Assembly: GCF_000799075.1 (NCBI RefSeq)
Contig: NZ_JTLI01000007.1
Location: forward strand, 1 to 64,000
Direction of reading: 5' to 3'
DNA: 64,000 nucleotides
Source of the DNA: Cetobacterium sp. ZOR0034
Lineage (GTDB): Bacteria > Fusobacteriota > Fusobacteriia > Fusobacteriales > Fusobacteriaceae
Shown: positions 10,748-16,396 of the stretch, piece after piece
Layout: each line of letters begins with the position of its first letter
How positions within the stretch are numbered: position 1 is the first letter of the stretch
Made by a program: the position numbers and the translations under genes
Notes under the pieces: model-generated
The model's input: only the letters and a program-made list of their open reading frames with translations
Database searches by the model: none
What the model was told of the DNA's origin: nothing

Positions 10748-10776
10748 TTGACAATATTTGTGAAATATAGTACAAT
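10748..10776 (+). promoter_or_regulatory. Promoter of the purine riboswitch/permease unit
   Basis: A consensus TTGACA (10748-10753) is followed after 17 bp by TACAAT (10771-10776). The predicted start near 10783 lies only about 12 nt before the riboswitch P1 stem. Confidence 0.85.
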
Positions 10777-10794
10777 ATTCTGTATTTTTGATCA

Positions 10795-10861
10795 CTGATA
10801 TAATCCTGCAATAAGGGCAGGAGTTTCTACAAGCCGCCGTAAATGGCTTATTATTAGGAGG
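10795..10861 (+). ncRNA. Purine riboswitch, predicted adenine class
   Basis: All core elements of the purine aptamer are visible. P1 is CTGAT (10795-10799) with ATTAG (10853-10857). J1/2 reads ATAAT. P2 is CCTGC with GCAGG, and L2 ends in GG (10815-10816). J2/3 contains GTTTCTAC, and P3 is AAGCC with GGCTT. L3 contains CCGTAAA, with CC at 10837-10838 to pair with the L2 GG. The nucleotide that reads the ligand (position 74 in the B. subtilis xpt numbering) is T10851, which in known members gives adenine rather than guanine specificity. AGGAGG (10856-10861) begins inside the P1 3' strand, so ligand binding should hide part of the ribosome binding site. Known: the aptamer class. Inferred: ligand and off-switch mechanism. 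Confidence 0.9.
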
Positions 10862-10865
10862 AGTA

Positions 10866-12194
10866 ATGGAGAACATTAAACAAAAGAATAATGGTGTGCT
10901 AGGGGCTATTGATTCTTATTTTCAACTTAGCCAACACAACACTACAATTTCAACAGAATTAACTGCTGGAATTACAACATTTATGACAATGGCATACATT
11001 TTAATAGTTCAGCCTCTATTCATGAGCGCTGCTGGAATGGATGTAAAAGCTGTTACTATTGTAACTGCGATACTATCAGCTGCATTTTCAATCGTTATGG
11101 GACTATATACAAATAGACCTTTTGCCATGGCACCAGCTATGGGAGGAAATGCTTTCTTTGCTTATACTTTAGTTGCCGGAGGAATGGTAACTTGGGAAAC
11201 AGCTATGGGAATGGTATTTCTATCAGGAATAGGATTTTTATTATTAACAGTTCTTGGATTAAGAGGACTTATAGTAGAAGCGATTCCTAAAAATTTAAAA
11301 TTTGCTATTGGAGTAGCTGTAGGATTCTTCATAGCTATGGTAGGATTTAAAAATGGTCAAATAATGACTATTGGAAACGGGACAATCTCTATGGGAAGCA
11401 TCTCTAATCCAAATACCATACTATCTTTAATCGGACTTTTCATAACAATTGCACTTGTTTTAAATAAAGTAAAGGGCGGAGTTTTAATTGGTATAGTTAT
11501 TACAACTTTACTTGGAATTCCAATGGGGATCACTCAGATACCTGAGAGTTTCTTCTCTATGCCTCCATCAATATCTACAATAGCTTTCAAGCTTGATATT
11601 ATGGGATCATTAAAATTTGCATTTATACCCCTTATATTCACATTTTTCGTAGGAGATTTCTTCTGCACTCTTGGAACACTTCTTGGAGTATCTGCTCAAG
11701 CAGGACTTTTAGATGAGGATGGAAATCTACCAGAAGTAGATAAACCATTTTTAGTAGATTCTATAGCAACTATTGTAGGAGCATTATTTGGTTCAACAAC
11801 AATAACAACATTCTTAGAATCTGCAGCTGGAGTTGAAGAGGGAGGAAGAACAGGGTTAACTGCAATCTCAACTGGAATATGTTTTATATTTACTATATTT
11901 TTAACACCTATAGTTTATATAATTCCATCTGCTGCAACAGCACCAGCTTTAATTTTTATTGGAATTTTAATGATGACAAGCATTAAATTTATTGACATGG
12001 ATGACATGACTGAATTCGTTCCTGCTGTTATCACGATTATGTTTACAATTTTTACTGATAATATGGCCTCAGGAATGAGTATGGGAATAATATCTCATGT
12101 TATTATCAAATTTTTAACTGGAAGATATAAAGAGCTAAATGCTCCTGTGTTAATTTTAACACTGCCATTACTTGGTTATTTTATCTTTTTATAG
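10866..12194 (+). CDS. NCS2/AzgA-PbuG family purine permease
   Basis: This 442-residue polytopic membrane protein of the AzgA/PbuG branch of nucleobase transporters takes up adenine, guanine or hypoxanthine by proton symport. The N-terminal TELTAGITTFMTMAYILIVQP segment is a family hallmark, as is PAMGGNAFFAYTLV. A dozen or more hydrophobic helices fill the rest, and the GALFGSTTITTFLESAAGVEEGGRTG motif region (about 310-335) carries substrate and ion contacts. It sits directly behind the purine riboswitch. The adenine-type position 74 makes adenine a likely substrate. It is a single-gene unit ending in a bidirectional terminator. Confidence 0.93.
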   Translation: MENIKQKNNGVLGAIDSYFQLSQHNTTISTELTAGITTFMTMAYILIVQPLFMSAAGMDVKAVTIVTAILSAAFSIVMGLYTNRPFAMAPAMGGNAFFAYTLVAGGMVTWETAMGMVFLSGIGFLLLTVLGLRGLIVEAIPKNLKFAIGVAVGFFIAMVGFKNGQIMTIGNGTISMGSISNPNTILSLIGLFITIALVLNKVKGGVLIGIVITTLLGIPMGITQIPESFFSMPPSISTIAFKLDIMGSLKFAFIPLIFTFFVGDFFCTLGTLLGVSAQAGLLDEDGNLPEVDKPFLVDSIATIVGALFGSTTITTFLESAAGVEEGGRTGLTAISTGICFIFTIFLTPIVYIIPSAATAPALIFIGILMMTSIKFIDMDDMTEFVPAVITIMFTIFTDNMASGMSMGIISHVIIKFLTGRYKELNAPVLILTLPLLGYFIFL

Positions 12195-12220: not shown

Positions 12221-12250
12221 AAAAAAGCTGAAGAATTCTTCAGCTTTTTT
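12221..12250. terminator. Bidirectional terminator between purine permease and ABC transporter
   Basis: This is a perfect 30-bp palindrome around GAATTC with AAAAAA and TTTTTT at its ends. It serves the converging permease and ABC transporter units. Confidence 0.9.
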
Positions 12251-15082: not shown

Positions 15083-16285
15083 TTATGAATCTTTTAATAA
15101 CTCTTTATATGTTGAGTTTATTCCTATCGCACCTAACGGAGCTGTTATTAATACACTCAATATAGCTATGGCTTGCATAATTTCTCCACCCACAACTCCC
15201 ATTTGCAAAGGTATTCCAGCTTTTGCAGATTGAACTGTTGCTTTTGGTAGATATGCTATCACACAAAAAAGCCTCTCTTTATAAGTTAAATTAGTTCCTA
15301 TTAAGGCGATTAAAACTCCTAATGATCTTACTGAAAGTGAGAAAAATAAAATAGTTAAACCTATAAAAAAGTATCCACCTACAAGTCCTGGATTTATTGC
15401 CATTCCTACAAATGTAAACAGATATATTTTTCCATATTTCCAAATAGAATTCATTCCTTTATGAATCTCTTTATATTTTTCACTATAATAGAAACGAATA
15501 AAAAACCCTAGAGACATAATACTAAGTAATGAATTGTATAGAGAAAAATGATATTTGTTTTCTATAAATCTTAGTAAGATACACAGACTAAATATTACAA
15601 TCAATTTAAAACTAGAGTTTTTAATATTTAAAAATGATTTTTTTCCAATAAAAGCAACGACCCATCCTATAAGTAAACTAACTACAATTGAAAGTGGAAT
15701 AGTCAAAAGTTGAGTTTTCATATCAAAACTTCCTCCATCAATCTTTTGAAAATATATAGCTAAAAATGTTGTAAATAGAGTTATAGCTATTGTATCATCT
15801 GCTGAAGCTCCAACTAAAAGTAGTTGTGGAACAGATTTCTTTTGTCCAACATTTTTATCAATAAGATTTACCATCGATGGAATAAGTACAGCCGGACTAA
15901 CTGCAGCTATTATAAATCCTAGAATAGCACCTTGGATAAATGTAAAATTTAAAAAAATTGTTGAAAGATAAGCTACTGCAAATCCTTCTAATGTAGCTGG
16001 AATAATACTAAGTAAAACTGCCGGTCGTCCTATTTTTTTTATTTGATCTGCTCCAATACCAAGACCACCAATAAATAAAACTATGACTAAAGCGATGTCT
16101 TTTAACAAAGGTGCAAAGCTTAGAGCTAACTCAGGTGTTTTATCAAATCCATATGGTCCAATCAAAACCCCTGCAACCATCATCCCTATTAAAGATGGTA
16201 TTTTAAATTTTTCTACAATTTTACCTAAAAAATTTGAATAGATTGCTAAAAAAATGAAAAAAATTAAAGTAATAATATAATGCAT
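15083..16285 (-). CDS. CPA2-type cation:proton antiporter under fluoride riboswitch control
   Basis: This 400-residue membrane protein has 11-13 hydrophobic segments in the order of the CPA2 exchanger family. GIGADQIKKIGRPAVL (about 76-91) and the buried acidic pair in GASADDTIAI (about 158-167) are where transport aspartates lie in this fold. It has no C-terminal TrkA/RCK domain, unlike KefB or KefC. A fluoride riboswitch fills its leader, so a role in fluoride tolerance is likely; whether it moves fluoride itself or adjusts ion or pH balance cannot be told from sequence. AAGGAGG lies 8 nt before the ATG. It forms a single-gene unit. Confidence 0.88.
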   Translation of the reverse strand: MHYIITLIFFIFLAIYSNFLGKIVEKFKIPSLIGMMVAGVLIGPYGFDKTPELALSFAPLLKDIALVIVLFIGGLGIGADQIKKIGRPAVLLSIIPATLEGFAVAYLSTIFLNFTFIQGAILGFIIAAVSPAVLIPSMVNLIDKNVGQKKSVPQLLLVGASADDTIAITLFTTFLAIYFQKIDGGSFDMKTQLLTIPLSIVVSLLIGWVVAFIGKKSFLNIKNSSFKLIVIFSLCILLRFIENKYHFSLYNSLLSIMSLGFFIRFYYSEKYKEIHKGMNSIWKYGKIYLFTFVGMAINPGLVGGYFFIGLTILFFSLSVRSLGVLIALIGTNLTYKERLFCVIAYLPKATVQSAKAGIPLQMGVVGGEIMQAIAILSVLITAPLGAIGINSTYKELLKDS

Positions 16286-16302: not shown

Positions 16303-16380
16303 AATAAAAAAGACTCCTACCCTTAAAAAAGAGTAGGAGTCATTAGCTTTACGCGTTTAATGGCGAACTCCATCGCCTAT
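16303..16380 (-). ncRNA. Fluoride riboswitch (crcB motif) with built-in terminator
   Basis: On the minus strand the leader reads GGCGATGGAGTTCGCC (from 16377), then ATTAAACGC, then GCTAATGACTCCTAC: nearly the class consensus. GGAG in the first hairpin loop can pair with CTCC in the last segment to form the pseudoknot of the fluoride-bound aptamer. That same segment (16341-16333) is the 5' arm of a 9-bp terminator stem (3' arm 16320-16312) followed by TTTTTT. Fluoride binding should therefore prevent termination and turn on the antiporter gene. Confidence 0.95.
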
Positions 16381-16396
16381 TTATTAATCTAGAATT

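Follow-up and report, generated by a model that had tools for sequence, protein, structure and literature searches.

A compact adenine-type aptamer that probably serves as its own expression platform upstream of a purine permease gene in Cetobacterium

Direct occlusion of the ribosome by an aptamer is established for the preQ1, SAM-II and SAM-III riboswitches, and ribosome sites embedded in the P1 stem are established for SAM-I. In purine aptamers, a U at position 74 selects adenine. In the Vibrio vulnificus add riboswitch, the ligand undoes a separate hairpin that sequesters the Shine-Dalgarno sequence (SD) and the AUG, and in Bacillus subtilis pbuE, which encodes an exporter, it disrupts a terminator, both with ON logic, while xpt-pbuX and other C74 importer switches are guanine-specific and use a terminator platform with strand exchange. 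The name direct occlusion is that of a review (PMC10907184), according to which only the 5' base of the ribosome binding site (RBS) lies within the aptamer of Tte preQ1-I, and another preQ1-I switch blocks at a distance of up to 10 nt. In Barrick and Breaker 2007 (PMC2258182), direct translation attenuation is assigned where the start codon lies within 15 nt of P1, an RBS inside the aptamer is placed mostly in TPP, preQ1 and SAM-I, and the question is raised why direct translational control is not commoner in classes with RBS-like 3' bases.

The leader described here was found in a window of 64,000 nucleotides from Cetobacterium sp. ZOR0034 (contig NZ_JTLI01000007.1, positions 1 to 64,000 of the forward strand). 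Analysis by cmscan returned an RF00167 match at 10776-10873 with 59.3 bits and an E-value of 1.1e-7 (gathering cut-off 37 bits). Judged by its sequence, the element is an ordinary member of this family and, by its U74, of adenine type, and it presumably binds adenine. A first-pass annotation, made from the DNA letters, had already placed a promoter, a purine aptamer with its P1 stem, an AGGAGG and a start codon here, and each was recovered at the positions given below; the ATTAG that it took for the P1 3' strand (10853-10857) corresponds to the last five bases of the six-base strand UAUUAG. The features are as follows:

10748..10776 (+): sigma-70-type promoter, TTGACA-17-TACAAT, 11 of 12 consensus matches, kept in orthologous leaders
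10782..10865 (+): predicted 5' leader of about 84 nt, nearly all of it aptamer; start predicted from the -10 box and a conserved G after it
10792..10793 (+): possible P1 extension U-C, pairing with G10858-A10859 over the bulged A10794 (MFE fold, pair counts)
10795..10800 (+): P1 5' strand CUGAUA (cmscan alignment, pair counts)
10804..10822 (+): P2 hairpin UCCUGC / GCAGGA with loop AAUAAGG (cmscan, pair counts; 2 pairs with compensatory changes)
10823..10830 (+): J2/3 core GUUUCUAC, U51 equivalent at 10828 (cmscan; invariant across leaders)
10831..10849 (+): P3 hairpin AAGCCG / UGGCUU with loop CCGUAAA (cmscan, pair counts; 3 pairs with compensatory changes)
A10850-U10851 (+): J3/1 (cmscan)
10851 (+): specificity base, position 74 equivalent, U and thus adenine type (RF00167 alignment; U in 11 of 11 leaders)
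10852..10857 (+): P1 3' strand UAUUAG (cmscan alignment, pair counts)
10856..10861 (+): Shine-Dalgarno AGGAGG, first 2 bases within P1, complementary to the organism's own 16S 3' end ...GGATCACCTCCT, which was confirmed as far as CACCTCCT
10866..12194 (+): AzgA-type NCS2 purine permease, 442 aa (profile match to PF00860, 117 bits)
12221..12250 (+): intrinsic terminator 3' of the permease gene, 13-pair stem and T run

As the promoter ends at 10776, transcription would start near 10782, which leaves a leader hardly longer than the aptamer. P1 consists of six weak pairs, one of them G-U, and its 3' strand has A10856 and G10857 in common with AGGAGG, leaving the four SD bases GAGG outside the stem. 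The extension pairs U10792-A10859 and C10793-G10858 would cover two further SD bases. AGGAGG is followed by a 4-nt spacer and the permease ATG at 10866, which stands 12 nt after A76 of the aptamer and 8 nt after P1; with this distance below 15 nt and two SD bases in P1, the layout falls within direct translation attenuation as defined above. The annotation had found no space for a separate expression platform, and we likewise detected neither a separate sequestering hairpin in the leader nor a terminator in the leader or the first 650 nt of the permease gene, the only terminator matches being weak 5-pair ones deep within the gene and the strong one after it. Elsewhere in the window, a predicted gene for a cation/proton antiporter (15083-16285, minus strand) is preceded, at a distance of about 40 nt, by a fluoride riboswitch (RF01734, 58 bits, 16327-16386, minus strand).

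Orthologues of the permease were collected within the family to which the window belongs, and 10 of 10 orthologous leaders tested gave RF00167 matches at 56.6-65.5 bits. The layout is common to 11 leaders including that of the window, ten from Cetobacterium and one from a sister genus. None of the 11 departs from the P1/SD segment UUAUUAUUAGGAGGA, and the ATG follows it at a constant distance except in one leader with an extra A. Among the nine distinct leaders, the structure is kept in 97.2% of pair cells (94.4% for the P1 extension) and five pairs in P2 and P3 have changed on both sides; none of 500 shuffles matched the observed values for pair conservation and both-sided change, and the match is not one of chance. 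P1 itself is near-invariant, with one G-U to A-U change, and so receives no separate support from covariation, a constraint that fits a stem whose 3' strand must double as SD. Three-way junction, conserved core and covarying P2 and P3 are those of a purine aptamer, while the leader MFE z of about -0.3 is uninformative alone, the aptamer being small and AT-rich. An 81%-identical orthologue of a sister-genus genome (L022 in G002) retains the promoter, TTAGGAGG and an intact SD with no aptamer between promoter and TTAGGAGG; control is thus dispensable in at least one species.

The permease is related in sequence to the AzgA/AZG proteins, its best solved relatives being the plant adenine/guanine permeases AZG1 and AZG2. 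Of the nine homologues closest to it beyond the orthologue group (50-54% identity), seven are encoded directly downstream of an adenine deaminase (TIGR01178, 408 bits on a fragment, under the full-length cut-off), and this linkage points to adenine as the likeliest cargo. Paralogues of about 40-45% identity, including L006 of the same genome, follow C74 aptamers with terminators in several species. The match of L006 (G000:C6:42823-44067) contains one in-frame TAG in two genomes. In genomes G010 (L127) and G008 (L128), the aptamer in front of an adenine deaminase-permease operon is of C74 (guanine) type and is accompanied by a terminator; adenine use may thus be guanine-controlled there.

We propose, with a probability of roughly 70%, that the leader is an adenine-type riboswitch in which the aptamer constitutes the whole expression platform and, by direct occlusion, turns off translation of an adenine importer. 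As long as adenine is absent, P1 would stand open for some or all of the time, leaving AGGAGG accessible to the ribosome. Adenine would pair with U10851 and lock the three-way junction together with P1, which would then take the first two SD bases, and probably four via the bulged extension, while the compact folded RNA would sit against the rest of the SD, 8 nt before the start codon, so that the 30S subunit could not load and the importer would be repressed by its own cargo. Since the leader contains no terminator and offers no space for a further hairpin, the aptamer is the sole structure that adenine could stabilise, and the small overlap of P1 and SD is no obstacle in view of the one-base overlap of Tte preQ1-I and the preQ1-I block at up to 10 nt. 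We infer both the OFF direction, in which ligand lowers expression, and the steric block of the ribosome by the aptamer. The earlier claim that ligand-stabilised P1 blocks translation is supported by the anatomy, by its exact conservation in 11 leaders, by the lack of a terminator or separate sequestering hairpin and by the identity of the gene; the thermodynamic models are ambiguous as to whether P1 opens in the ligand-free state.

In favour of the proposal, the calculated hybrid with the anti-SD weakens from -10.2 to -7.7 kcal/mol on closure of P1, and to -5.9 kcal/mol with the extension; a hybrid of the free SD bases shifted downstream by one register (AGGAG) is conceivable but would lie only 2 nt from the ATG. 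When 35 nt of coding sequence were included, the ensemble model left P1 mostly open without ligand and gave a chance of 0.51 that AGGAGG of the window is fully open, the value with P1 closed being zero by construction. In leader-only folds without ligand, P1 is largely formed, its 5' strand occupying about 1.9 of the two bases that SD and P1 have in common. Ligand would then have little left to change, which counts against the proposal, as do the four SD bases outside the six-pair P1 and the orthologue that lacks the aptamer. Nearest-neighbour models of this kind ignore the loop-loop contact and the ligand and cannot settle whether closure of P1 depends on the latter.

The modelled opening of P1 in the presence of coding sequence results from pairing of AAUAAU in codons 8-9, which in most orthologues is not above synonymous-codon chance. 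If this pairing with the P1 3' strand formed a hidden platform, the SD would be presented in a loop in the free state and control would proceed by strand exchange; the structure appears in the modelled MFE of the window's leader with coding sequence, and the closest orthologues within Cetobacterium retain its site. We consider such a platform very unlikely, as it does not clearly exceed synonymous-codon chance (fractions 0.045-0.96, 11 leaders) and is absent in the sister-genus orthologue with the same aptamer. A coding-region anti-P1 as a general feature was rejected after a synonymous-recoding test. Quite unlikely, too, is a translational ON switch of the kind found in add, where the SD would be trapped in an alternative pairing without ligand and freed by adenine. 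In its favour, the adenine switches characterised so far act ON, ON layouts are also those of the other adenine-type aptamers read, and UCCU in P2 might in theory pair with the AGGA within the SD; yet there is no room for the sequestering hairpin, the SD lies partly in P1 when ligand is bound, and an ON switch on an importer would create a positive feedback loop. The modelled ensembles of almost all leaders place SD-P2 pairing near zero, and trapping of the SD by P2, being negligible in most of them, was dismissed as a candidate.

Control at the mRNA level, for example by Rho-dependent termination or decay once translation stops, could act instead of or besides initiation, and translational riboswitches of other systems are coupled to Rho or decay in this way (PMC10907184). 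We regard it as unlikely here, given that neither the leader nor the early gene contains an intrinsic terminator and that such an effect would follow from SD occlusion rather than replace it. That the aptamer is vestigial or constitutively closed and its regulation lost seems highly improbable: although it has the lowest score among the 11 RF00167 aptamers of its own genome and is missing from one orthologue, invariant core bases and covarying stems in two genera are not expected of a decaying element.

Direct occlusion as proposed for the window leader would be an exception among the purine aptamers surveyed. Nine of the 11 aptamers in the genome carry C74 and two U74, namely that of the window and L005, which lies upstream of a deaminase-type gene (presumably adenosine/adenine deaminase, going by its sequence) and whose terminator stem uses the P1 3' strand, a layout of ON logic. 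The other aptamers of the genome (L005 was read separately) are located 83-291 nt upstream of their starts, or about 80 nt for L002, versus 12 nt after A76 here; the automatic TTG start of L002 at +14 is most likely wrong, with a plausible ATG near +80. In the same genome, the C74 aptamer L009 (G000:C25) precedes a gene for a BMP-type binding protein whose SD lies within a strong hairpin (-26.6 kcal/mol), perhaps indicating translational control by strand exchange.

For the family, the summed count is about 334 aptamers in 61 genomes, and the direct layout was seen in 12 of them, namely the 11 leaders described above and the doubtful C74 case L095; extension to the 98 genomes available for the phylum added none. 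In L095 (genome G056, C123:18940-18983), a C74-type aptamer is followed directly by GGAGG and the ATG of an ORF and then by a terminator, downstream of which lies a gene resembling formate-tetrahydrofolate ligase; with an ORF of only 16 codons and a P1 broken by a mismatch, it was excluded from the count. The other U74 aptamers of the family, from two genomes of Cetobacterium and seven of another genus, are deaminase-linked, and the remaining pattern matches are probably due to chance. A U74 scan of 84,980 species genomes, with a pattern of fixed P3 length that required GGAG and ATG and would therefore miss looser variants, returned the direct layout in Cetobacterium only. Eight of nine pattern matches outside this genus were not purine aptamers by cmscan, and the remaining one, L053 from Firmicutes UBA6806, is a genuine U74 aptamer followed by a terminator and a deaminase-type gene, so that its GGAGG belongs to the terminator stem. 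The C74 direct layout was searched for in the phylum, in 398 genomes of the phylum of L053 and in viral contigs; the 398 genomes gave zero cases, a weak result as the aptamer pattern occurred in only 4 of 101 sampled, and two viral matches were coding sequence without the aptamer core. Every other adenine-type aptamer read, whether from the genome itself, one sister genome, seven of another genus or a Firmicute, shows an ON layout in its sequence, with a deaminase-type gene and a terminator competing with P1, which bears out the contrast that the annotation had drawn with ON-acting adenine switches.

We hold it somewhat more probable than an even chance that the leader represents the first natural direct-occlusion purine riboswitch and the first adenine OFF switch, built as one 84-nt unit that is confined to Cetobacterium and a single sister genus. 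A search of open-access literature turned up neither a direct-occlusion case among purine riboswitches nor an adenine OFF switch. As direct occlusion is established in other classes, the novelty would lie in the combination and not in the principle. With a natural purine example, the question of Barrick and Breaker could be put to the test on an aptamer that is among the best understood; if the proposal is true, one could ask how a six-pair P1 alone gates the ribosome without strand exchange, ON logic would not be obligatory for adenine aptamers, and synthetic work would gain a very small OFF switch of natural origin.

Compared with known systems, the window leader shares with add an RF00167 aptamer with U74 and the presumed action on translation initiation, whereas in place of a sequestering hairpin undone by the ligand it has a P1 that holds part of the SD, with OFF logic as the likely outcome. 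Like pbuE, it combines an adenine-type aptamer (U74) with a gene for purine transport, here that of a likely importer with no terminator in its leader; the separate terminator or SD hairpin and the ON logic by which add and pbuE are recognised were thus not seen in the window leader. Shutting off a purine importer through a purine aptamer, as would be the case here, is a trait of xpt-pbuX, other C74 importer switches and L006, yet the window leader has neither their guanine specificity nor their terminator platform with strand exchange. Closest in design are Tte preQ1-I, preQ1-II, SAM-II/V and SAM-III, where aptamer and platform likewise form one unit with the RBS in or beside the aptamer, and SAM-I, in which the RBS lies in the P1 3' strand, as two bases of the SD do in the window leader. 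These direct-occlusion riboswitches belong to other aptamer families with other ligands and are mostly pseudoknots, whereas the window leader would rely on the stem that closes a purine three-way junction.
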